From positions 1-10,741 of the forward strand of contig CAMWRC010000021.1 of the NCBI GenBank assembly GCA_947176565.1: a stretch of DNA of 10,741 nt. The letters run 5' to 3'. Every line of letters starts with the position of its first letter. Position 1 is the stretch's first letter. The translations under genes were made by a program, and so were the position numbers. Below the pieces are notes generated by a model. That model did not search any database, was not told the origin of the DNA, and saw only the letters and a list, made by a program, of their open reading frames with translations. This document shows, piece after piece, positions 45-10,741 of this stretch. The DNA comes from an uncultured Ruminococcus sp. GTDB lineage: Bacteria; Bacillota; Clostridia; Oscillospirales; Ruminococcaceae.

Positions 45-1397
45 ATGAAAAAATATACAGCTAAAATTGCAGCATTCCTTACAGCAGCCACTTGCTCTGC
101 CGGTCTGACTTCATGCGGACGAGATGTTCCTACTGTTGAAAACTCCGGCGGAGAATTCAGCATTGCCGGCGGTATCGATGGAGAGAGCAGTCTCGAAAAT
201 GAACTGGAAGCTACTATTCCGGATTATCAGGAGGCAGCTGTTTCTGAGACAACTACCGCCGTTACAGAACCGGTTTCCACTGAAACTACTACTGTCAAGA
301 TTGCTATTGTAACACGTTCAAAAGAAGAACTTGACAAGTTGGCGGCTGCCACAAAAACTGCTGCAGCAAGACCGGTATCAACAAAGCCTGCGGCAACAAC
401 ACCTGCTCCTGATACAAATCAGTCCGGAAATAATAATTCCGGCGGAAACGCTTCATCTACAAAGCCGGCCAATAATTCCGGCGGAAACGGTGCGTCCACA
501 ACTATCCCAGGAGGAAACACTGCTTCTACAACTCCTTCCGGCTCAGGAACTGTAAGCGGTATTAATCTAAGCTATTACTCCGCTGAAATTGATGTCGGTA
601 AAATGAAAAGCTATCCCGTTGTCGCTGAAATTATTCCCGAAGTATGGACAAGCTCTGACCCGTCTGTTGCAACTGTTGACATCTATGGAAACATCACCGG
701 CGTGAGTGAGGGAAGCTGTATTATCCGCGTCGTTTCCGCAGATGACAGCACTCTCGGCGCAGAAGTAAAAGTAACTGTAAAAGACCCTAATTCTACAACT
801 CCTCCTGTAACTACTGCAAACCCCTCAAATCCGGAACAGAAGATTGAAGTTATCGACGGCATTACCTATGTGAACGATATTCTCATAGCCAATAAATCAT
901 ACGCCATGCCGTCATGGTACAATCCGGGCGGACTTACAAATGAAACGTATTCCGCTTTCCAGGAACTTTCCTACGCAGCTTCAGTCGACGGTCTGGATAT
1001 ATATATTTCCTCAGGATTCCGTTCATATGAAACTCAGGACGAAATCTACAACAACTATGTCTACTGGAATGGTCAGGCAGTTGCTGATACGTTCTCAGCA
1101 CGTCCGGGATATTCCGAACATCAGACCGGTCTTGCAATTGATGTTAACGATATAAGCGACAATTTCATCGGAACTCCTGAAGCTATATGGCTTGCGGAAA
1201 ACTGCACAGATTACGGATTCATTATCCGCTATCCGCAGGGCAAACAGGATATAACAGGCTACAAGTACGAACCGTGGCATATCCGCTATGTAGGAAAAGA
1301 AACCGCAAAGGCTCTTAAAGATGCCGCAGCTGCTGCCGGAGACCCGACTCTTACCCTTGAAGAATATCTCGGAATTGATTCTTATTATCATGATTAA
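45..1397 (+). CDS. Big_2-domain lipoprotein with VanY-type D-alanyl-D-alanine carboxypeptidase domain (peptidase M15B)
   Basis: Probable zinc carboxypeptidase that trims the terminal D-Ala of peptidoglycan stem peptides, anchored outside the cell by a lipid. The start is set at ATG 45 because GGAG at 32-35 lies 9 nt upstream; the ATG at 36 abuts that GGAG and is unlikely. The 450-aa product has a lipoprotein signal with lipobox LTSC (Cys24), then a Ser/Thr/Gly/Asn-rich linker (about 60-168), a bacterial Ig-like Big_2 domain (about 171-246, with the SSDPSVATVD and GSCIIRV strands), and a VanY domain (about 270-440). Metal and catalytic motifs are intact: SEHQTGLAID (His359, Asp366) and EPWH (Glu409, His412), plus SGFRS (Arg326). 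It stands alone on its strand. An L,D- rather than D,D-specificity cannot be excluded from sequence, and no van resistance genes are nearby, so a housekeeping wall role is more likely than glycopeptide resistance. Confidence 0.88.
   Translation: MKKYTAKIAAFLTAATCSAGLTSCGRDVPTVENSGGEFSIAGGIDGESSLENELEATIPDYQEAAVSETTTAVTEPVSTETTTVKIAIVTRSKEELDKLAAATKTAAARPVSTKPAATTPAPDTNQSGNNNSGGNASSTKPANNSGGNGASTTIPGGNTASTTPSGSGTVSGINLSYYSAEIDVGKMKSYPVVAEIIPEVWTSSDPSVATVDIYGNITGVSEGSCIIRVVSADDSTLGAEVKVTVKDPNSTTPPVTTANPSNPEQKIEVIDGITYVNDILIANKSYAMPSWYNPGGLTNETYSAFQELSYAASVDGLDIYISSGFRSYETQDEIYNNYVYWNGQAVADTFSARPGYSEHQTGLAIDVNDISDNFIGTPEAIWLAENCTDYGFIIRYPQGKQDITGYKYEPWHIRYVGKETAKALKDAAAAAGDPTLTLEEYLGIDSYYHD
432..509 (+). 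repeat. Two 39-bp (13-codon) imperfect tandem repeats in the lipoprotein linker
   Basis: Units 432-470 and 471-509 both begin with an identical 19-nt stretch and encode NNSGGNASSTKPA and NNSGGNGASTTIP. A shorter third relative (GGNTASTTPSG) follows. The units keep frame, so copy-number change would only alter the length of the flexible spacer between the membrane anchor and the Big_2/VanY domains. Confidence 0.75.
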
Positions 1398-1430
1398 TAT
1401 TTAAAATCAAGAAGATAAAAACAAATCAAT

Positions 1431-1470
1431 AAAAATGCTGTACAGATTGATTTCTGTACAGCAATTTTTT
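1431..1470. terminator. Bidirectional intrinsic terminator between the VanY-type gene and dapL
   Basis: A perfect 10-bp stem (1436-1445 with 1454-1463) encloses an 8-nt loop. It has a run of T on the right (1465-1470) and a run of A on the left (1431-1435), so it reads as stem plus U-tract on both strands. It lies 12 nt past the dapL stop and about 40 nt past the carboxypeptidase stop, as expected for two convergent genes sharing one terminator. Confidence 0.88.
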
Positions 1471-1475
1471 ATATT

Positions 1476-2675
1476 TTAAAATAAGCTCTTGAATCTTTCC
1501 ATAGCCTCAATTGTACGCTGTCTGTCGCCGAATGCTGTAAGCCTGAACCAGCCCTCGCCGTTTTTACCGAATCCCTCTCCCGGAGTTCCGACAACTGCTA
1601 TCTTATTCAGCATAAGGTCAAAAAATTCCCAGCTTCCCATATTATCCGGACACTTGAACCATATGTACGGCGAATTTATTCCGCCGGTGAATTTTATTCC
1701 GAGCGAACTCATAGTATCGGCGATAATACGTGCATTTTCCTGATAGTATGCGATATTCTCGTGAATCTGTTTCAGTCCCTCTTCGGTAAATACTGCCGCC
1801 GCCGCGCACTGTACCGGATAAGACACGCCGTTGAATTTGCTTCCCTGACGGCGACCCCAGAGCTGTGACAATGAAACTTCTGTACCGTCAGAAGATTTCA
1901 CAACAAGAGCATTCGGAACAACAGTATATCCGCAGCGCATACCGGTAAATCCTGCTGTCTTTGAAAGCGAACACATTTCTATTGCGACTTCCTTAGCTCC
2001 CTCGATACAGTAGATACTGCGCGGGATTCCGTCTTCTGTGATAAATGCTTCATATGCGGAATCATATATTATAACCGCATTATTCTGCTTTGCATAGTCT
2101 ATCCAGACTTTAAGCTGTTCTGCCGTGTATACCGAACCAGTAGGATTATTCGGCGAACAGAGATATATAATATCAGCATGAACGCTGAAATCCGGCATTG
2201 CTGCAAATCCGTTTTCCTCATTTGAATCGGCATAGATTATCTTGCGTCCACTCATAAGATTTGAATCAACATACACCGGATATGCAGGGTCTGTAACAAG
2301 TATAATATTGTCATTGCCGAAAATATCCACAATATTTCCGCAATCCGCCTTTGCGCCGTCATTTATGCGTATTTCTTCCGGAAGAACATCAGCTCCGAAG
2401 CTTTTATAATAGCCGGAAACTGCTTCACGCAGGAAATCATAACCTGCTCCGCTGTCCTCATATCCCTTAAATGTTTCCTTTACTCCCATTTCATCGCAGC
2501 CTTTTTTCATAGCTTCAACCACAACAGGTGCAATCGGAAGCGTAACATCGCCGATTCCCATACGGATTATATCAGCATCGGGATTTTTTTCCTTGAAAGC
2601 ATTTATTTTTTTAGCAATATTTATGAAAAGATAGTTCATTTCAAGTTTAAGAAAGTTTTCATTAATCTGTGGCAT
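1476..2675 (-). CDS. dapL: LL-diaminopimelate aminotransferase
   Basis: PLP-dependent class I/II aminotransferase that converts tetrahydrodipicolinate plus glutamate to LL-diaminopimelate in one step, bypassing the succinylase/acetylase routes. The 399-aa length fits DapL. The N-terminus (INENFLKLEMNYLFINIAKK) and the IIRMGIGDVTLP segment are typical of this family rather than of AspC or DapC. Visible PLP-fold motifs are SPNNPTG (174-180), YDSAYEAF (Asp205, Tyr208), the Schiff-base lysine in SLSKTAGFTGMR (Lys239) and the C-terminal Arg of EGWFRLTAF. The start ATG at 2675 is supported by AAGGAG (2685-2690, read on the minus strand) with a 9-nt gap. It is the second gene after dapF, 34 nt downstream, so the two form one operon making successive steps. 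The product, after epimerisation by DapF, feeds both lysine and peptidoglycan. Confidence 0.93.
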   Translation of the reverse strand: MPQINENFLKLEMNYLFINIAKKINAFKEKNPDADIIRMGIGDVTLPIAPVVVEAMKKGCDEMGVKETFKGYEDSGAGYDFLREAVSGYYKSFGADVLPEEIRINDGAKADCGNIVDIFGNDNIILVTDPAYPVYVDSNLMSGRKIIYADSNEENGFAAMPDFSVHADIIYLCSPNNPTGSVYTAEQLKVWIDYAKQNNAVIIYDSAYEAFITEDGIPRSIYCIEGAKEVAIEMCSLSKTAGFTGMRCGYTVVPNALVVKSSDGTEVSLSQLWGRRQGSKFNGVSYPVQCAAAAVFTEEGLKQIHENIAYYQENARIIADTMSSLGIKFTGGINSPYIWFKCPDNMGSWEFFDLMLNKIAVVGTPGEGFGKNGEGWFRLTAFGDRQRTIEAMERFKSLF

Positions 2676-2709
2676 AATTTTTTTCTCCTTTAATAAATAT
2701 AATTCACAA

Positions 2710-3573
2710 TTACTTCACAAGCCATTCACCCGTACATATGAAATCCGCACCGCCTGTCATCAGCACAGTTCCGTCGGATTTATATGTTATACGCAAATCC
2801 CCTCCGCGGAGATGAATGAGTATTTCCTCATCATGTCTGCAATAACCGTTAAGAACTGCTGCTACAGCAGATGCACACGCTCCTGTACCGCAGGCGAACG
2901 TCTCACCGCTTCCGCGTTCCCATACGCGCATATTAAGAGTCTGTGAATCAATAACCTCAATGAACTCCGTGTTTATGCGTTCCGGAAAGAGTCTGTGATT
3001 TTCAAATACTGGTCCGATTTTTTCGAGGTCAAGTCCTGCTATATTCTCCGTGAATACTACCGCATGAGGATTTCCCATAGATACGCACGTTACAGAAATA
3101 TCTCCTTTGAATACGCCGTCCGGAATCTGAACATCAATCGGCATATTTACAACAGGATTGCAGGAATCGCTGATTACCGGAATTTTTTCCGGTTCGAGAA
3201 TCGCTTTGCCCATATCGACATGTATCTGCTGGACTTTGTTTTCATCATCAACCGACAGGGTAAGATATTTTATGCCGGAATTGGTTTCGAGAGTGATTTC
3301 AGTCTTATCAGTCATACCGTTTTCATAAACATATTTTCCAATACAGCGCGTGGCATTTCCGCACATCTGAGCCTCTGAGCCGTCGGCATTGAAAATACGC
3401 ATACGGAAATCAGCTGTTTCAGATGGCATAATAAGCACAAGACCATCTGAACCGATACCTTTGCGGACATCGCTTACGGAAACCGAAAGCGAAACAGGGT
3501 CGCTTACAGTTTCCTCAAAACAGTTTATATAGATATAGTCATTGCCTATACCATGCATTTTTGTAAATTTCAT
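2710..3573 (-). CDS. dapF: Diaminopimelate epimerase
   Basis: PLP-independent racemase that interconverts LL- and meso-diaminopimelate in the cytoplasm, the step just after DapL. The 287-aa product begins MKFTKMHGIGNDYIYIN, the DapF signature. Both catalytic cysteines are present: Cys71 in MCGNATRC and Cys228 in FACGTGACAS. The substrate-binding segments SMGNPHAVVF and ERGSGET are also clear. An AAAGGAAG-like ribosome binding site lies just upstream of the ATG. It is first in the dapF-dapL operon, with a promoter at 3619-3647. No lysine riboswitch is seen: only about 40 nt separate the predicted transcript start from the ATG. Everything needed for activity appears intact. Confidence 0.95.
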   Translation of the reverse strand: MKFTKMHGIGNDYIYINCFEETVSDPVSLSVSVSDVRKGIGSDGLVLIMPSETADFRMRIFNADGSEAQMCGNATRCIGKYVYENGMTDKTEITLETNSGIKYLTLSVDDENKVQQIHVDMGKAILEPEKIPVISDSCNPVVNMPIDVQIPDGVFKGDISVTCVSMGNPHAVVFTENIAGLDLEKIGPVFENHRLFPERINTEFIEVIDSQTLNMRVWERGSGETFACGTGACASAVAAVLNGYCRHDEEILIHLRGGDLRITYKSDGTVLMTGGADFICTGEWLVK

Positions 3574-3739: not shown

Positions 3740-3772
3740 AAATATATAAATATTTGTAAAGGTGTTGATAAC

Positions 3773-4714
3773 TTGGATTTTCTTTTGACCGACGACAACG
3801 AAATCAATATCGAAATTGGAAAAATTATGCTGGAAAAATGCGGTCTATCCGTTGATACCGCCATGAGCGGTCAGGAAGCCGTATCAAAAACCGCTGAAAA
3901 ATCATACCGCATGATTTTTATGGATATTAATATGCCCGGTATGAACGGATTTCAGGCGGCAGAAGCTATTCACCGGAATAATCCAGAAATCCCGATAATC
4001 GCGTTGTCAGCAGATGATATTTCCCACGATAATCCGGATTTTATCAGGAGCGGAATGAACGGGACTCTCCTCAAACCTCTTAAAATGGAAAATCTCCAGA
4101 ATCTGCTCTCACAATTTATCGAAACAGATTCCGCCCACTCTGCCTCAGAACCCGAAAACGAACAAATTTTCAGTGCTGATTATCTCATCGAAGTCATGGG
4201 CAGTGAAAGGTCTGTACTCCGGCTGATTTCTCAGTTCCTCAGCAATCACAGCGATGACTGCATTCAGCTCTGTGAATGTATTCAGGACGGCGATTTCATT
4301 CATGCAAGGGAAATTCTACATAATATAACAGGTATTTCCGGAAATATGTACTGTATGCAGCTATATAAAGCATCTTCAGCTCTCAGCAACGAACTGAAAC
4401 AGAATACTTCCGGAAGTCTTGAACACTTTACTGATATCTGGGATTCTACTATTTCCGAACTCAATAAACTGCGCGCTGAACTTCTTGAACGTACCAGAAA
4501 TTCCGAAAATTCCGGAAATCCCGCTGTATGGAGTAACCTGCGCGAACAGTTTCTTTCGCTCTCCGATGATTTTGATACAGCTGCTGTGGATTTGTTTACT
4601 GAAAACGCCGTTGCCTTTGAAAACAATATGAATACCGAAAAATTCAGAGAACTTCGTAAAGCTGTTCTCAACTACGATTTTCTCTGGATTTCCGAAAACA
4701 GGGGGATTATCTGA
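3773..4714 (+). CDS. Response regulator receiver-HPt phosphotransfer protein
   Basis: Cytoplasmic phosphorelay protein of 313 aa with no DNA-binding domain. The start is a TTG at 3773: it follows an AAAGGTG ribosome binding site by 8 nt, sits about 27 nt after the predicted transcript start, and places the first receiver strand at the N-terminus. Residues 1-118 are a receiver with the acidic pair Asp7/Asp8, phospho-acceptor Asp51 (FMDINMPGMNG), Ser79 and Lys101 (LLKPL). Residues about 133-245 form an HPt helical bundle with the phospho-histidine His183 in the segment REILHNITGISGN. The C-terminal 60 or so residues are helical and not recognised. It is first in a three-gene operon and overlaps the next gene by one base (TGATG), implying coupled translation. 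It could shuttle phosphate between the downstream kinase and the AraC-type regulator; that direction is inferred. Confidence 0.85.
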   Translation: MDFLLTDDNEINIEIGKIMLEKCGLSVDTAMSGQEAVSKTAEKSYRMIFMDINMPGMNGFQAAEAIHRNNPEIPIIALSADDISHDNPDFIRSGMNGTLLKPLKMENLQNLLSQFIETDSAHSASEPENEQIFSADYLIEVMGSERSVLRLISQFLSNHSDDCIQLCECIQDGDFIHAREILHNITGISGNMYCMQLYKASSALSNELKQNTSGSLEHFTDIWDSTISELNKLRAELLERTRNSENSGNPAVWSNLREQFLSLSDDFDTAAVDLFTENAVAFENNMNTEKFRELRKAVLNYDFLWISENRGII

Positions 4715-5490
4715 TGTATAATATTCTTATAGTTGAAGATGATGCAGCTCTCCGCTTTATCTATTCAAAAATGAAAACATGGTCTGACTGCGGATTTACT
4801 ATCGCCGCCGAAGCTTCAAACGGTAAAGTTGCTTTGGAACTGCTCGAAAAAAAGAAATTTGACCTCATATTTACTGATATACGTATGCCATTCATCGACG
4901 GAATAGAAATGCTGCGTAAACTCAATGAATCAGGAAATACAATACCTGTTGTATTCGCAAGCTCCTATGACGAATTTGAGTACGCCCGTCAGGGTCTTAT
5001 TCTCGGAGCTTTTGACTATCTGCTCAAACCAGTCGATAAACATAAACTCGAAGATGTTCTCCTGCGCGTGAAAAAGAAGATTGATGAAATGAATTCAATC
5101 AGCAATCTTAATCCATGTATTGAGATAGTGCTGAATAATCTGAACATCTCTCCAGATGAAAATAAATTCATTAATCAGGTAGCTCTGTACTGCTCACATA
5201 ACTGCAATGAACTTATAACTGCTGATGATATTGCCAATGCTCACGGCTACAGCAAGGACTATTTCGGCAAACTGTTCAAAAAATACTTTGGAATAACATT
5301 CCATGAATTTTACTCACATGTGAAAATTGAACAGGCTAAAGAATTTATACGTACCGGAAATTACAAGGCTTACGAGATAAGCGATATTTTAGGATATGCC
5401 TCAGTAGACTACTTTACAAAGGTTTTTAAGGATATTACCGGCACGACGCCGTCAAAATACAAGGCTGAAATCAACGGCGGAAAGAAGTGA
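4714..5490 (+). CDS. AraC-family response regulator (YesN-like)
   Basis: Two-component transcription factor of 258 aa. The N-terminal receiver (1-122) has Asp9/Asp10, phospho-acceptor Asp55 (FTDIRMPFIDG), Ser83/Ser84 and Lys105 (YLLKPVDKHKLE), the arrangement typical of YesN-type regulators. A short linker is followed by an AraC/XylS DNA-binding domain (about 155-253) with both helix-turn-helix units, including ITADDIANAHGYSKDYFGKLF and the conserved second half ISDILGYASVDYFTKVFK, then TPSKYK. The linker is shorter than in many YesN proteins. AGGGGG at 4700-4705 serves as ribosome binding site, and the start overlaps the preceding stop by one base. It is the only protein of the operon with a DNA-binding output. 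YesN-like regulators often control carbohydrate uptake and hydrolysis genes; the target here is unknown. Confidence 0.92.
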   Translation: MYNILIVEDDAALRFIYSKMKTWSDCGFTIAAEASNGKVALELLEKKKFDLIFTDIRMPFIDGIEMLRKLNESGNTIPVVFASSYDEFEYARQGLILGAFDYLLKPVDKHKLEDVLLRVKKKIDEMNSISNLNPCIEIVLNNLNISPDENKFINQVALYCSHNCNELITADDIANAHGYSKDYFGKLFKKYFGITFHEFYSHVKIEQAKEFIRTGNYKAYEISDILGYASVDYFTKVFKDITGTTPSKYKAEINGGKK

Positions 5491-5494
5491 GAAT

Positions 5495-6571
5495 ATGAAT
5501 AACTACGCTGAAATTCTGATAGTCGATGATATGCCTGACCAGATTGCTTATTCCAGTACTCTGCTTCACTCTCAGGGATACCGTGTCTTTGCAGCTTCAA
5601 GCGGAAAGGCTGCTATGAAATTTCTCGAAAAACGGATTCCGGATATGATACTTCTTGATATTCAAATGAGTGATATAAATGGTCTTGAAGTCTGCCGCAT
5701 GATTAAGGCTGAACCGAAAACACAGGATATTCCGATAATATTCCTTACTTCCGAAACAGACCCTGAAATCATTACACAGGGATTCGGACTCGGCGGCTGC
5801 GACTATGTGAAAAAACCTTTCGTCAAGGAGGAATATCTCGCACGTATCAGAACTCACTTACAGGTATCATCACAGCAGAAAGAACTGACCGCGGCAAATA
5901 ATGAACTTACACAGTTCTGCTCAGCAGTTTCCCACGACCTGAAAGCTCCGTTCAATATTATAAATATGCTGATTGAAATGCTCCGCTCTGAACTCGGCGA
6001 TAATCCGGACGAAAGCATCGCCGCTATCATGGATATGATAGTCTCAAAGGCTACCCAGACAAAAACCATGATAGAACGTCTTTTCGATTTCTCAAAAATG
6101 TGCAATGTAAATGCGGTTGTACGGCGTGTCGATATAAAACCGATTGCCCTCGAAACTTACAGCGACCTGCGTGAACTTGAACCTCCGGAACGGAATATCC
6201 AAATCATCTGCGGTGAACTTCCGCTTATTGACTGCGATGAAGTTCTTGTACGGATTATTCTGAAAAATCTGCTGTCCAATGCAATTAAATATACGTCAAA
6301 GCGTGAAAAAGCAGTTATTGAACTTTCAGGAGGTACGGAACAGCAGTACAATATCATAAAAATCAAGGACAACGGTTCGGGATTTGATATGACATACAGT
6401 AAAAAGCTGTTTCAGGTATTCCAGCGGCTTCATTCCGATGAGGAATTTGAGGGCAGCGGAGTTGGTCTTGCTCTGATAAACAGAATCATGGAACGCCACG
6501 GCGGAAAAATCAAGGCTTACGGCGAAGTTGACAAGGGCGCAGAATTTACCCTCTATTTTCCAAAAAGATAG
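5495..6571 (+). CDS. Receiver-histidine kinase (soluble response regulator/sensor kinase)
   Basis: Cytoplasmic kinase of 358 aa starting 4 nt after the preceding stop. Residues 1-122 are a receiver with Asp11/Asp12, phospho-acceptor Asp55 (LLDIQMSDING), Thr85 and Lys107 (YVKKPF). A short coiled stretch (about 124-140) leads into a HisKA dimerisation domain with His147 in FCSAVSHDLKAPF. The HATPase domain (about 240-358) has an N box (ILKNLLSNAIKYT, Asn258/Asn262), G1 (KDNGSGFD) and G2 (EGSGVGLAL). There is no transmembrane segment, PAS or GAF domain, so its kinase activity may be governed by phosphorylation of its own receiver or by a protein partner. As the only kinase in the operon it is the likely phosphate source for the receiver-HPt and AraC-type proteins. 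The HisKA-HATPase half resembles those of phytochrome-type kinases, but no photosensory domain is present. Confidence 0.9.
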   Translation: MNNYAEILIVDDMPDQIAYSSTLLHSQGYRVFAASSGKAAMKFLEKRIPDMILLDIQMSDINGLEVCRMIKAEPKTQDIPIIFLTSETDPEIITQGFGLGGCDYVKKPFVKEEYLARIRTHLQVSSQQKELTAANNELTQFCSAVSHDLKAPFNIINMLIEMLRSELGDNPDESIAAIMDMIVSKATQTKTMIERLFDFSKMCNVNAVVRRVDIKPIALETYSDLRELEPPERNIQIICGELPLIDCDEVLVRIILKNLLSNAIKYTSKREKAVIELSGGTEQQYNIIKIKDNGSGFDMTYSKKLFQVFQRLHSDEEFEGSGVGLALINRIMERHGGKIKAYGEVDKGAEFTLYFPKR

Positions 6572-6587
6572 AATAGGCATAACCCTA

Positions 6588-6627
6588 ACAGGCAGACACC
6601 TTACAGGAGGTATCTGTCTGTTTTTTT
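6588..6627 (+). terminator. Intrinsic terminator of the phosphorelay operon
   Basis: A 14-position stem (6588-6601 with 6608-6621) closes a 6-nt loop, with one G-T wobble and one C-A mismatch, and is followed by a run of seven T (6621-6627). It lies 16 nt beyond the kinase stop codon and closes the three-gene transcript. Confidence 0.85.
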
Positions 6628-6649
6628 GTCAGAAGTAAACTTCAACATA

Positions 6650-6680
6650 TATAGTAATCCTACTTGAAACCAAAACAAAT
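6650..6680 (+). repeat. Left copy of a 31-bp direct repeat flanking the sigma/dockerin locus
   Basis: This stretch matches 9586-9616 at 27 of 31 positions in the same orientation; all four differences are transitions. The copy begins 22 nt after the T-run of the preceding terminator. Unlike the right-hand copy it has no intact inverted arm downstream. It could be a decayed mobile element end, a dispersed intergenic repeat or a regulatory element; no transposase is present. Confidence 0.65.
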
Positions 6681-6717
6681 TCATTGATAAAAATTTTCTG
6701 TATTTTTTTATTTTTAC

Positions 6718-6745
6718 TGCAACAATATAACAAATCGTGCGACTA
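6718..6745 (+). promoter_or_regulatory. Candidate ECF-type, possibly autoregulated, promoter of the sigma gene
   Basis: TGCAAC (6718-6723), 16 nt, then CGACTA (6740-6745), followed by AAG. This resembles the AAC-containing -35 and CGTCTA-like -10 elements of many ECF sigma promoters, and would put the transcript start about 30 nt before the sigma ATG. No good TTGACA/TATAAT pair is seen in the same 150 nt, which is mostly A+T-rich runs. The match is by eye to a loose family pattern, so it is tentative. Confidence 0.35.
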
Positions 6746-6781
6746 AGTAGTGAAGATATATTTTCAGAAGGGAGCAAATAT

Positions 6782-7336
6782 ATGGATAACGGTGCAAGTA
6801 GCTACCGCCGTTTTCTCGAAGGGGATAAAAACGCTCTTACTGAGATAATCCGAGAATACAGAGATGGAATAGTGCTGTATATAAACAGTTTTACCAACAA
6901 TATCTGTGTTGCAGAAGAGATAGCAGAGGAGGTATTTGTAAAGCTCTATGTAAATAAGCCTAAATTTTCTGGAAAAAGTTCTTTTAAGACATGGATTTAT
7001 TCCATAGGAAAATATACAGCTGTCGATTATATCAGAAAAAATAAAAAAATTGTTTCGGCTTCTATTGATGAGTTCTATAGTCTTGCGGACAAGGAAGAAC
7101 TGGAACATAATTATATAAAGAATGAGCAAAAAATCATGCTCCATAAGACAATTCAAAAACTCAAGCCGGAATACAGTCAGGTGCTTTATCTGATATATTT
7201 TGAAGATTTTAATGCTTCACAGGCAGCAAAAATTATGGGTAAATCAAACCGTCAGGTCACTTATTTGCTTTACAGAGCAAAAAAAGCCCTTAAATCAAAG
7301 CTTGAACAGGAGAAGTTTATATATGAAGAGCTATGA
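6782..7336 (+). CDS. ECF-type RNA polymerase sigma factor
   Basis: Cytoplasmic transcription initiation factor of 184 aa, the usual ECF size, with only regions 2 and 4. Region 2 (about 15-85) includes DGIVLYINSFTNN, the AEEIAEEVFVKLY helix and FKTWIYSIGKYTAVDYIRK, which cover core binding and -10 recognition. Region 4 (about 125-178) has KLKPEYSQVLYLIYFEDF and the helix-turn-helix ASQAAKIMGKSNRQVTYLLYRAKKAL for -35 recognition. The start ATG at 6782 follows GAAGGGAG (6767-6774) by 7 nt; the GTG at 6737 has no such site and is probably upstream of or within the promoter. The 3' end overlaps the next gene by 14 nt, indicating coupled expression with the putative anti-sigma segment. The gene is visibly richer in A+T than the phosphorelay genes (G+C 16/60 at 7021-7080 against 25/60 at 5941-6000), which may reflect transfer or faster evolution. 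Confidence 0.9.
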   Translation: MDNGASSYRRFLEGDKNALTEIIREYRDGIVLYINSFTNNICVAEEIAEEVFVKLYVNKPKFSGKSSFKTWIYSIGKYTAVDYIRKNKKIVSASIDEFYSLADKEELEHNYIKNEQKIMLHKTIQKLKPEYSQVLYLIYFEDFNASQAAKIMGKSNRQVTYLLYRAKKALKSKLEQEKFIYEEL

Positions 7337-9494
7337 GGATATTGCAGAAAGAGTGTTTCAAAAAGGAGATGAGATTCTCAGAAGAAAACAGAAAAGAATT
7401 GCGCTGATAAAGAAAAATACTCTTATTATTTCGGAAATATGCGCCGCTATTATTATATGTATCGGAATTTGGAAAACCGATGATATAAGAATCTTTCCAC
7501 ATAATAATTTTCCTGATAATATCGTTACAGAATCGGAAAATAACATAGAAAATTCAATTCCTGTTTCCACTTCGGAATATAAGAAAAATGAAATTTATAC
7601 GTCCGAAACCGTTGCAGTAGCTGAAACTGACACAGAAAGAGAAAGTAATACCTCTGTATTTTCAACAGAATCAGCAGTGGAAATTACATCACAAGACATG
7701 GTTATTGAGAATAACAACAATACAGCGCAAACACAAACATCTTTGCAGACAGATTCACAGACAATTGTACAAACACCTTTGCAGACAGCTATACAGAATA
7801 ATTTACAGACATCTGTACAAACCGATTTGCAGACAATTTCAATCACAACAGAAATTCAACCACCAATAACAGTCTGCACAACAACGCAGACATATGATGA
7901 AGGGAGCTATTATATGAACAAGCTTACATCTTTTTTCACATCAGCAATTGTAATTGCAGCTTCAGCTACGCCTATCATAGGCAATGCTGAATACAATATC
8001 GACACATCAAGATACTGGTCCGGCGAAAAAGAAATATTTGCAAAAATGGACAGCGGAGAACTTGATCTCGATATCAACGGCGACGGAGTATTTGATATCT
8101 TTGACGGTTACACGATGCAACGCTATTTCGACCATTGGGTAGATCCAGATTATGTGTTTACAGATCCGGAAATGGAAGAACAGGCTTATGCAGTTATGTA
8201 TCAGGCAGTGGATCTGGAAACAAGAAACCGCATTGAAGCTATCGCCGATTATAACGGAGACGGAGAAGTGACTGGTATAGATATGAGTCACCTTACACGG
8301 TATTTTATCATAAACCGAAGGCTTGAAGCAAAATATCTTGACCCTTCTTACTATGCCACGGAATCTCCCTGCCACTCTCATAATCATATTGGATACTACT
8401 GGACTTCAGAAGAACGTTATGTATACCATTTGATTAATAATATGGAATATCTTAATGCAGGATATGACATTGTAGCTGAAATGTACGAAAACGGAACAAT
8501 TGACCTTGATATCAATGGTAATGGTCAGCTTGACGTTGGCGATGTGTATGACGTCTATGTATATGAAGACCAAAACCCACGTTTTGACGACAACGACTGT
8601 AGTGAATATATGACCGCTGAAGAAGTTAACCGCTGTAGAGAAGCGCTCTCACATTATCCGCGTTCACCCTATATTAGCACTTACAAGGCGGATTTCCTAT
8701 ATTATTTAACACATTACGTTGTAGGACATATCGAACTGAAGCCTGAATATTTCACGGAGGAATATTATCAGGAAACATACGGCAGCAATTATTATCGTGC
8801 GTACAGTGGCATTATCTCTGCCCGTATAAAGCAGGCGGCAGCGTACCTTGGGTTAAAACCTGACGAAGACGCTTGGATAAAATATGATAGAGACGATTTT
8901 TATGATTTCTTCAATGCTTACTGCAATGATGTTGAAAGCGGTCTGCGTTCCGCCCCTGATGTAAATATGGACGGAGTTGTTGACTACTATGATTACTTTG
9001 CTTCCAACATCTATTTTGAAGACTTAATGAACAACAAAACTGCCGATGAGAGTATACTTCCTGCGGATATATGGAACAATCTTGCAGAAAACTGTGACTT
9101 CAACGGAAACGGCACAAGCAAGGACATCATTGATATTCTCACGATACAGATGTATGTAGTTAAAAATGCAGAAATCGACAATTTTGACGAGATTTACAAC
9201 AACTATAAGGAAAGTCTCGGCGGAACTCCCGAAAGCAGCATTGAAGACTTAAGCTATGAGGATAATCTCAAAATCCTTTCGGAGATTGAAAAGAATGACT
9301 TTGTTTACGGCGATGCCAATGAAGACGGTGATCTTACAGTAGCTGATGCAACATTGATATTGCAGTCACTCGGAAATGCTGACAAGTACCCTCTTACGCC
9401 GCAGGGCAAATTAAATGCAGATATTTACGGAGACGGAGATGGAGTTTCAGCTTCTGACGCACTTGAAATTCAGAAAATTCTTGCAGATAAATAA
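7323..9494 (+). CDS. Putative membrane anti-sigma segment joined in frame to an EF-hand-rich dockerin type I protein
   Basis: One 723-aa frame with two parts. The start at 7323 follows AGGAG (7308-7312) and overlaps the sigma gene by 14 nt. Residues 1-32 are a charged cytoplasmic tail (MKSYEDIAERVFQKGDEIL and following), 33-50 a single membrane helix, and 51-195 a Ser/Thr/Gln-rich stretch with QT repeats (136-171). This layout and position suit an anti-sigma factor, although no named anti-sigma domain is recognised. At residue 198 begins a full signal peptide (to about 222, cleaved after GNA). The rest is Asp/Tyr-rich with EF-hand-like loops at 250, 309, 396, 546 and 592 (for example DINGDGVFDIFD, DYNGDGEVTGID, DVNMDGVVDYYD). 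It ends in a type I dockerin: first calcium loop from Asp664, second from Asp700, with the one-residue longer second loop seen in ruminococci. The dockerin predicts docking to a scaffoldin cohesin. The large middle region has no recognised enzyme domain. Whether one or two proteins are made is open. Confidence 0.75.
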   Translation: MKSYEDIAERVFQKGDEILRRKQKRIALIKKNTLIISEICAAIIICIGIWKTDDIRIFPHNNFPDNIVTESENNIENSIPVSTSEYKKNEIYTSETVAVAETDTERESNTSVFSTESAVEITSQDMVIENNNNTAQTQTSLQTDSQTIVQTPLQTAIQNNLQTSVQTDLQTISITTEIQPPITVCTTTQTYDEGSYYMNKLTSFFTSAIVIAASATPIIGNAEYNIDTSRYWSGEKEIFAKMDSGELDLDINGDGVFDIFDGYTMQRYFDHWVDPDYVFTDPEMEEQAYAVMYQAVDLETRNRIEAIADYNGDGEVTGIDMSHLTRYFIINRRLEAKYLDPSYYATESPCHSHNHIGYYWTSEERYVYHLINNMEYLNAGYDIVAEMYENGTIDLDINGNGQLDVGDVYDVYVYEDQNPRFDDNDCSEYMTAEEVNRCREALSHYPRSPYISTYKADFLYYLTHYVVGHIELKPEYFTEEYYQETYGSNYYRAYSGIISARIKQAAAYLGLKPDEDAWIKYDRDDFYDFFNAYCNDVESGLRSAPDVNMDGVVDYYDYFASNIYFEDLMNNKTADESILPADIWNNLAENCDFNGNGTSKDIIDILTIQMYVVKNAEIDNFDEIYNNYKESLGGTPESSIEDLSYEDNLKILSEIEKNDFVYGDANEDGDLTVADATLILQSLGNADKYPLTPQGKLNADIYGDGDGVSASDALEIQKILADK
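7728..7835 (+). repeat. 12-nt (4-codon) degenerate tandem repeat encoding xxQT
   Basis: About nine units of four codons encode QTQT followed by SLQT, DSQT, IVQT, PLQT, AIQN, NLQT, SVQT and DLQT. The CAG/CAA-ACA pairs keep a 12-nt period. The repeat lies between the membrane helix and the internal signal peptide, so it would act as an extended, probably wall-spanning spacer whose length can change in steps of four residues without breaking the frame. Confidence 0.75.
7899..7988 (+). other. Internal ribosome binding site, ATG and signal peptide inside the anti-sigma/dockerin frame
   Basis: GAAGGGAG (7899-7906) is followed after 7 nt by ATG at 7914, in frame with the long ORF. The same 8-nt site with the same 7-nt gap begins the sigma gene (6767-6782). 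The 25 codons from 7914 read as a classical Sec signal peptide: MNKL, a hydrophobic core (FFTSAIVIAASATPIIG) and a cleavage-type GNA-EY end. Translation from here would give a secreted dockerin protein of 526 aa (about 501 after cleavage) separate from the upstream segment. The two TAT codons just before the ATG are each one substitution away from a stop. Confidence 0.7.
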
Positions 9495-9513
9495 GAACTT
9501 TTGTTAATTAGAT

Positions 9514-9557
9514 AAAAATATCCCCTCAGAAACTCAGTTTTTGAGGGGATATTTTTT
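9514..9557. terminator. Bidirectional intrinsic terminator between the dockerin gene and the GH3 gene
   Basis: A perfect 15-bp stem (9514-9528 with 9542-9556), G+C-rich at its inner end and A/T at its base, encloses a 13-nt loop that can pair further (AAAC with GTTT). A-run on the left and T-run on the right give a U-tract on both strands. It lies 19 nt after the dockerin stop and also serves the convergent GH3 gene. Confidence 0.88.
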
Positions 9558-9584
9558 ATCCTGCTCCGATTCCTCAGAGCCTGT

Positions 9585-9629
9585 TTATAGTAATCCCACT
9601 TGAAATCAAAATAAGTATGATTACTATAA
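9585..9629. repeat. Right copy of the flanking repeat, forming an 11-bp perfect inverted repeat
   Basis: Arms 9585-9595 and 9619-9629 are exact reverse complements and flank a 23-nt loop. The left arm and most of the loop (9586-9616) are the partner of the direct repeat at 6650-6680. The right arm contains the GH3 stop codon (9624-9626). With no T-run after it, the hairpin is not itself a convincing terminator; a small palindromic insertion (MITE-like or REP-like) is the simplest guess. Confidence 0.6.
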
Positions 9630-10741
9630 TGATTTCAGAGGTCTGACTTCAAGCTGTAATGATGCCGCTGAATCAAATCCGGCATACAGAATAAAATCAT
9701 TACTTTCAATTACTCTTTTTCCGTTTTCGTCCACAACTTCAAAGGCACTTTCCGGAATTGGAATCTCAACTTCTCTGCTTTCATGTTTTTTCAGGAAAAT
9801 CCGCCTGAATCCGCATAAGCTGCGGTTCGGAACGGCATTGCGGCTATTGCTCTTGATATAAATCTGTACAACATCTTCCGTATCGAAATCACCGTCATTC
9901 GTCACGGTAACTTTGACTTTTCCGTCAGTGAATCTCATATCCGAACAGGTCATATGCGAATATGTCAAACCATATCCGAAAGGATAAAGTATATTATCCT
10001 GAGCGTACCTGTATGTACGGTTTTTCATGGAATAATCCGTGAAATCCGGCAGTTTGTCCGCTGTTTCGTAAAACGTAACCGGAAGCTTTCCCGATGGCGA
10101 AACATTACCGAAAAGTATATCCGCCAATGCCTTTCCGCCCATCTGTCCTGCATACCATGCCTGAATCAGAGCATCACAGTCCGCCTCCACATTTATGGAA
10201 CTCCCCGAAGCATTGACAATAATAACCGGCTTTCCTGTTTTCATGACAGCTTTTATAAGTTTTCTCTGCGATTTGGGAAGTCTTAAATCCGGCTTGTCTC
10301 CGGACGAAAATTCATTGCCTGTATCGCCCTCCTCACCCTCAATGGACGAATCAAGTCCGACGCAGAGTATAACAACATCTGAATATTCCGCAGCGATTTC
10401 AGCTTCTGCAAGACGGTCGTCCGCCGCGGCAAGTCCCATAATTCTGTCCTTATACAGGTGGCAGCCCTGAGAATACATCACACGTCCGCCAAATTCGTCC
10501 TGAATGCCCTCAAGAAATGTTATATATCTGTCTGCTGTGCCGTTGTAATTTCCCTCAAGAGCAGTTCTGCTGTCGGCATTTGGTCCGATTATGGCTATCG
10601 TCTGAATCTTTGTCCGGTCAAGAGGAAGTATTCCGTTATTTTTCAGCAGAACCATTGACCTTCTCGAACATTCAAGCGAAAATGCCTTATGCTCATCACA
10701 CGATATTATACTGCTGTTCAATACGTCATATTCCGTGGATT
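9624..10741 (-). CDS. Glycoside hydrolase family 3, C-terminal part (runs off the window)
   Basis: C-terminal half of a GH3 enzyme (beta-glucosidase or beta-xylosidase type) that releases terminal sugars from oligosaccharides. The frame stays open to the window edge (upstream codons read STEYDV), so the TTG at 10721 is not taken as a start. Counting from that Leu: the linker into the second domain is CSRRSMVLLKNNGILPL (18-34); the GH3 C-terminal alpha/beta sandwich spans about 40-255, with IAIIGPNAD, GLDSSIEGEEGDTGN (the loop that carries the acid/base in this family), LRLPKSQRKLI, WYAGQMGG and YPFGYGLTYS; an Fn3-like domain (about 265-360) follows. The N-terminal barrel with the nucleophile Asp lies outside the window. 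No signal peptide can be judged. The EGEEGDTGN and SGDKPDL segments resemble xylosidase-like GH3 proteins of rumen bacteria, but substrate is uncertain. The stop TAG falls inside an inverted repeat. Confidence 0.92.
   Translation of the reverse strand, partial: STEYDVLNSSIISCDEHKAFSLECSRRSMVLLKNNGILPLDRTKIQTIAIIGPNADSRTALEGNYNGTADRYITFLEGIQDEFGGRVMYSQGCHLYKDRIMGLAAADDRLAEAEIAAEYSDVVILCVGLDSSIEGEEGDTGNEFSSGDKPDLRLPKSQRKLIKAVMKTGKPVIIVNASGSSINVEADCDALIQAWYAGQMGGKALADILFGNVSPSGKLPVTFYETADKLPDFTDYSMKNRTYRYAQDNILYPFGYGLTYSHMTCSDMRFTDGKVKVTVTNDGDFDTEDVVQIYIKSNSRNAVPNRSLCGFRRIFLKKHESREVEIPIPESAFEVVDENGKRVIESNDFILYAGFDSAASLQLEVRPLKSL

Follow-up and report, generated by a model that had tools for sequence, protein, structure and literature searches.

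The locus described here raises the question of whether one continuous reading frame, lying directly behind a sigma-factor gene of an uncultured Ruminococcus sp., encodes one protein or two. An earlier sequence-only reading of the window (the whole stretch of DNA analysed, 10,741 nucleotides) had described a frame that is open from end to end and that nevertheless carries a Shine-Dalgarno sequence (SD), an ATG and a signal peptide in its middle, the ATG being directly preceded by the codons TAT TAT. Both descriptions are correct, and the frame translates to 723 aa (Table 1). The same reading offered three options: two overlapping products are made from one frame, a stop codon was lost recently, or the chain is cut after export. 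Conservation and constraint speak well for the first of them and the other two fared poorly, as set out below. We consider it likely that the frame yields two products, one an anti-sigma-like chain anchored in the membrane and the other a dockerin protein that is secreted, both kept by selection.

The operon and its sigma factor

The sigma protein scores above the Pfam cut-off with Sigma70_r2 and Sigma70_r4_2 and reaches 88.9 bits with TIGR02937 (cut-off 42.9), and it contains sigma-70 regions 2 and 4 only, the composition that defines the ECF type. The best 25 of the 96 models matching it are ECF-type, none of them SigI. An alignment of 11 operons, one of which ends at a contig end, shows the conserved motif TGCAACA-N15-CGACTAA upstream of the sigma gene. 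An exact search of 13 genomes found it 13 times, in 11 of them, once at each sigma gene and a second time in genomes G002 and G026; a backward-read control pattern gave 4 matches in the same 13 genomes, so that the two extra sites lie within chance. When one mismatch was allowed, nine sites were found in six genomes, six of them at the sigma gene, against 1 for the control. A wide regulon was not seen at this motif stringency, and since matches occur almost only at its own operon, the sigma factor seems mainly to drive its own operon, with the secreted protein most likely as the main output. Both additional copies, in L269 (G002) and L265 (G026), lie upstream of a gene that by eye resembles a lipoprotein gene, and in L265 the copy is followed by a short piece of a sigma gene.

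The fused gene adjoins and overlaps the sigma gene and encodes a membrane protein with one strong helix, as anti-sigma genes do. The 14-nt overlap recurs in 72 of 80 loci with such a single-helix frame, fused ones included. Searches of Pfam and NCBIfam gave no convincing family and no known anti-sigma domain for the N-terminus, which is basic, and profile searches for the RsgI N-terminal domain were negative in the window protein and eight relatives. Gene position and topology suggest that this N-terminus acts as an anti-sigma factor.

At the other end of the chain, the C-terminal module matches Pfam Dockerin_1 (E 6.3e-12) and has the paired calcium-binding arrangement of dockerins; its best solved relative is a Ruminococcus flavefaciens group 1 dockerin that was solved with a cohesin. 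An AlphaFold2 model built on 11 sequences (overall mean pLDDT 57.1) is usable for much of the ectodomain alone: pLDDT lies mostly at 60-93 in residues 221-590 and falls below 50 in residues 28-221. A fold search with the ectodomain returned no match at E <0.001, and its sole sensible row was the dockerin.

Table 1. Features of the operon in window coordinates
Feature	Position	Strand	Basis or remark
Promoter-like motif TGCAACA-N15-CGACTAA, presumed self-recognised (autoregulation)	6718..6746	+	upstream of sigma gene
ECF-type sigma factor, 184 aa	6782..7336	+	Pfam Sigma70_r2, Sigma70_r4_2; TIGR02937
Whole fused frame, 723 aa	7323..9494	+	start overlaps sigma gene end by 14 nt
Cytoplasmic N-terminus and membrane helix, residues 1-58, anti-sigma-like by position	7323..7496	+	hydrophobic segment; dN/dS
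Thr/Gln-rich linker, residues 59-188, presumed extracellular	7497..7886	+	dN/dS; whole-codon indels
Internal SD GAAGGGAG	7899..7906	+	predicted duplex of the 16S tail with the region upstream of the ATG, -11.6 kcal/mol; nucleotide-level conservation
Candidate nested in-frame gene, secreted dockerin protein, 526 aa including signal peptide	7914..9494	+	ATG (7914-7916, residue 198) in 49/50 frames; M198 invariant
Predicted signal peptide, residues 198-222, probable cleavage after GNA	7914..7988	+	rule-based features only
Helical ectodomain with several EF-hand/dockerin-like calcium loops	7989..9302	+	loop motifs; structure model
Type I dockerin	9303..9482	+	Pfam; 5m2o_B, E 1.5e-12

Elsewhere in the window, positions 3767-6571 upstream encode a receiver-domain protein, a receiver/AraC-type regulator and a receiver/histidine kinase hybrid (Pfam), and 9624-10721 on the minus strand, near the contig end, resembles by eye the C-terminal part of a family 3 glycoside hydrolase.

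Continuity of the frame across relatives

The sequence-only reading proposed looking in orthologous loci for a stop codon before the internal ATG. The window and ten orthologues, 36-69% identical to it, align end to end; none has a stop between the two parts, and the internal Met is invariant in all 11 sequences. A continuous frame kept in ten such orthologues, and behind three sigma-factor classes, argues against a stop codon lost recently, and orthologues with the same frame likewise rule out an assembly error joining two genes. Within the genus, a search of 100 genomes that scored up to 11 candidates in each gave matches at E 1e-25 in 36, counting that of the window. Eleven named matches in public genomes all come from metagenome assemblies; the titles read Ruminococcus sp. 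or Ruminococcus flavefaciens in eight, Alistipes in two and Clostridia bacterium in one. In the family search 6 of 297 genomes matched at 1e-20, the window's own over the full length and the others only over the C-terminal part; since three candidates were scored per genome, absence outside the genus says little. Many of the genomes are fragmented assemblies.

A wider survey took in 125 stretches behind sigma matches, among the matches listed, and 35 around matches of the fused protein. Inspection by eye removed 16 of 65 candidate frames (unrelated proteins, whether of the membrane or not, as well as a second start of L167 and the stand-alone dockerin L026), which left 49; four were added by hand (L017, L165, L176 and L186) to give 53, and dropping the near-copies L159, L164 and L169 gave 50 frames, 46 found by a rule blind to the SD and 4 by hand. 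Six more frames added by hand (L119, L142, L170, L185, L217 and L220) bring the set to 59 fused frames from one genus, or 56 without the same near-copies. The set is a sample, not a census, and two further fused frames, L221 (minus strand, 538-3135 of the reverse complement) and L238, enter no count.

By rule, the 131 classified loci of the window's sigma class comprise 60 in which the partner is a single-helix sensor of about 270-540 aa, 30 that are fused and 41 with a sensor and a separate downstream signal-peptide gene, this last rule being loose and at least two of its loci (L119 and L142) actually fused; a further 10 loci were cut or unclear. The second and third classes gave 14 and 7 fused forms, and they were reached only through matches of the fused protein, which biases them towards that form. 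Eight frames missed by the rules proved fused on inspection (L119, L142, L165, L185, L186, L217, L220 and L221), five in the window's class and three in the second. Mapped on the best sigma tree of the window's class, the fused and unfused states require five switches; the well-supported branches by themselves imply two or more. In L092, L102, L126, L202 and others, the sensor is followed within tens of bases by a separate signal-peptide gene, likely the unfused form of the same operon plan.

The frequency of such separate genes (41/131 by the loose rule) could suggest that the two genes also work separately within the fused frame, the open stretch between them being incidental and the read-through chain functionless. 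In L153 the frame is interrupted within the linker and the internal SD, ATG and signal peptide persist, which would fit this explanation; the close relative L229 is intact, the break may be a sequencing error, and L153 is the only clear broken fusion found. Earlier breaks might be represented by short, unfused partners, for example L112, L215 and L234. Against incidental openness stands the linker itself, with dN/dS of 0.34-0.58 in three close pairs and indels of whole codons, which indicates that it evolves as protein; the N-terminal part gave 0.11-0.19 in three close pairs. Openness is no test in itself because the frames were picked as open frames. Over the last 95 linker codons, however, the other two frames hold a stop in 48/49 and 49/49 cases, so an open frame does not come free. 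In agreement, the first helix and a Ser/Thr-rich linker stand in the same frame in 55/56, the exception, L017, being cut by its contig. We hence regard a functionless read-through chain as improbable.

Selection at the internal start and its loss

An SD of -9 kcal/mol or stronger precedes the internal start in 41 of the 50 non-redundant fused frames. Of 701 further in-frame ATGs, taken from this set as controls, 3 have such an SD, and of 2338 ATGs counted irrespective of frame about 1% do; synonymous redrawing of the eight upstream codons produced 6.2 strong SDs on average, with a maximum of 15 (2000 draws). The start is ATG in 49/50 frames; the exception is L186, one of the 41 with a strong SD, which has GTC and hence no usable start codon. 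Codon choice follows the same pattern: across the 56 frames, whatever their SD strength, AGG encodes the Arg at codon -4 in 36/40 cases, and AGT or AGC the Ser at codon -3 in 40/41; in the remainder of these frames the proportions are 270/1446 and 1064/2924. Peptides as different as ERS, EGS, EGG, ERN and others all spell the same SD, which implies that selection acts on the nucleotides. The in-frame SD and start codon are in this sense conserved beyond what the protein requires. Intact SDs are also present in L221 and L238 (-12.2 and -12.6 kcal/mol). The predicted openness of the mRNA at the internal start gave no clear signal (median rank 0.77, above 0.9 in 8/43). As for an internal promoter, a scan of 6560-9620, which covered the sigma-70 consensus only, found 7 sites, compared with a shuffle mean of 10.8, so that a promoter of this type is not supported.

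If only the long chain were made, the internal SD, ATG and signal peptide would be relics of an old gene fusion. A minority of frames (L217, L220 and L186 among them) did lose the internal start and yet persist as single chains, a pattern that agrees with this idea. A relic would have decayed, however, and the SD is instead kept in most frames by codons that amino-acid choice does not explain, and across three sigma classes; we find the relic explanation hard to credit. SD-like sequences can also pause ribosomes and stimulate frameshifting, and the internal SD might act in this manner on elongating ribosomes instead of initiating ones. Its distance from the ATG is that of a start site, however, and the signal peptide that follows begins with a Lys-rich segment; the stand-alone dockerin relatives L029 and L030 show the same arrangement of SD, ATG and signal peptide, and the G AAA AA(A/G) behind the ATG does not form a canonical slippery heptamer, all of which makes a pause or frameshift signal exceedingly improbable.

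Translation from the internal start, the preferred reading, would give the signal peptide a role in the short product, and the frames in which the start is lost bear on this. The internal start is intact in 43 of the 56 frames and degraded in 13. An Ala-type cleavage motif is present in 38/43 of the former and 3/13 of the latter (L019, L032 and L038), a difference with a Fisher p of 1.8e-5 when relatedness is ignored; basic residues following the Met, the extent of the uncharged stretch and hydrophobicity point in the same direction (p 3e-5, 0.003 and 0.011, relatedness again ignored). Signal peptides were judged by simple rules throughout. On rough trees the state of the start changes about 6 times, and two trees provide 3 or 4 independent pairs, of which 1.3-1.7 agree on average and 0.0-0.1 disagree, too few for significance. 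The clearest losses are L217 and L220, which lack an SD and in which acidic residues truncate the signal peptide. We read this as indicating that the signal peptide serves the short product, and that a frame which loses its internal start would become a plain membrane-anchored chain. The pattern named beforehand as counting against two products, namely orthologues that keep the frame and lack both internal SD and signal peptide, thus exists only as a minority, most clearly in L217 and L220 and also in L186 with its GTC; SD and signal peptide tend to decay together.

The remaining option, a single long chain that is exported and then cut at the internal signal peptide to release the dockerin protein, could draw on the cleavage motif, found in 41/56 frames. 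It would leave the nucleotide conservation of the SD unexplained, we found no positive evidence for it, and after a first helix that leads outwards signal peptidase would meet the segment in the wrong orientation, so that we hold it to be very unlikely. Export and cutting had been invoked in part because, in one chain, the signal peptide might form a second membrane helix and turn the dockerin back into the cytoplasm. This topology argument is weak. A hydrophobicity scan of the window's chain passes two segments, the first helix and, more weakly, the internal signal peptide, and the latter is less hydrophobic than the former in 49/49 frames on an approximate Hessa scale and in 47/49 on the Kyte-Doolittle scale; hence it need not stop in the membrane. 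The loss of the internal start together with decay of the signal peptide also suggests that the long form does not need a second helix, which would answer the concern.

Possible roles of a tethered and a free dockerin copy

From these observations a mechanism can be proposed, in which the sigma factor and the fused frame would constitute one autoregulated operon. Initiation at 7323 would yield the long chain, with a short cytoplasmic N-terminus probably holding the sigma factor, one membrane helix, the Thr-rich linker outside, and the calcium-loop ectodomain and dockerin tethered to the cell. Initiation at the internal SD and ATG (7914) would produce the same ectodomain and dockerin with their own signal peptide, and this short product would be secreted, free to join the cellulosome through a cohesin. 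We infer from the sequence features that internal initiation does take place and that the dockerin of the long form is outside the cell, where the tethered copy may sense what the free copy binds, and the pair may in this way sense the state of the cellulosome.

A bolder and quite tentative extension, based on the many paralogous sigma/ectodomain pairs, is that these operons form a genus-wide class of self-contained feedback devices. Tethered and free copies of one dockerin-bearing ectodomain would compete for the same cohesin or ligand, the sigma factor would read how full the scaffold is and adjust the secreted supply, and the class might be the missing regulatory layer of Ruminococcus cellulosomes, replacing RsgI.

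SigI/RsgI of Clostridium (Acetivibrio) thermocellum resembles the present operon in that, according to the accessible parts of the reports, a sigma factor lies beside a membrane regulator with an extracellular module and a link to the cellulosome (PMC11557425, PMC12484212). Here, in contrast, the sigma factor is of the ECF type, the RsgI N-terminal domain was not found, and the ectodomain carries a dockerin and its own nested start. RsgI receptors are described as limited to Acetivibrio-type cellulosomes (PMC11557425), and the regulation of the very large dockerin repertoire of Ruminococcus is described as not yet understood (PMC4081043). A widespread sigma-linked family with the regulator and a secreted dockerin protein in one frame would be a direct candidate for this control, and the arrangement may help to explain how fibre-degrading gut Ruminococcus control their enzyme machinery.

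In-frame internal starts are known in bacteria from the short form of CheA, PBP1b, IF2 and the dual start of lambda S, where, as here, one frame with two starts gives two related products. Unlike in these cases, the nested start described here leads into a signal peptide, so that one product would be anchored and the other secreted, and it recurs in three sigma classes. The fused frame would represent a conserved in-frame nested gene with products bound for separate locations, and automatic gene prediction would list it as a single protein.

Closer relatives are found in the genus itself. The stand-alone dockerin proteins L023-L026 and L028-L030 have a homologous ectodomain and dockerin with their own start and signal peptide, and in L029 and L030 the SD is of the same style as the internal SD of the fused frames; unlike the latter, they have no recognisable anti-sigma part upstream in frame. 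The single-helix sensors of the same sigma family share with the fused chains the kind of N-terminus, the helix and the Thr-rich linker, and differ in having an ectodomain of their own and no internal signal peptide found by rule.

Full-text literature searches, screened by title and the opening of the abstract, brought up no paper on a sigma partner and a secreted dockerin protein in one frame; subscription journals and preprints were mostly outside their coverage. The accessible parts of PMC11557425, PMC12484212, PMC2930009, PMC2721979 and PMC4081043 do not describe the architecture, and in that of PMC2721979 'sigma' occurs only in supplier names. The arrangement had been called unusual, which holds with respect to the literature found and does not hold within the genus, where the design is common.

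Two observations concern sigma genes of the same survey. On one contig, roughly 50 kb separate the L263 sigma gene from the L238 fused gene, and the 3' end of the former abuts a frame that by eye resembles a large serine recombinase, an arrangement that looks like the insertion of an integrative element where the sigma and anti-sigma genes meet. In the window's own genome, a second sigma gene of the same family (G000:C35:2518-3067) is matched in two overlapping pieces (L041 and L042), which suggests a frameshift or an assembly error.
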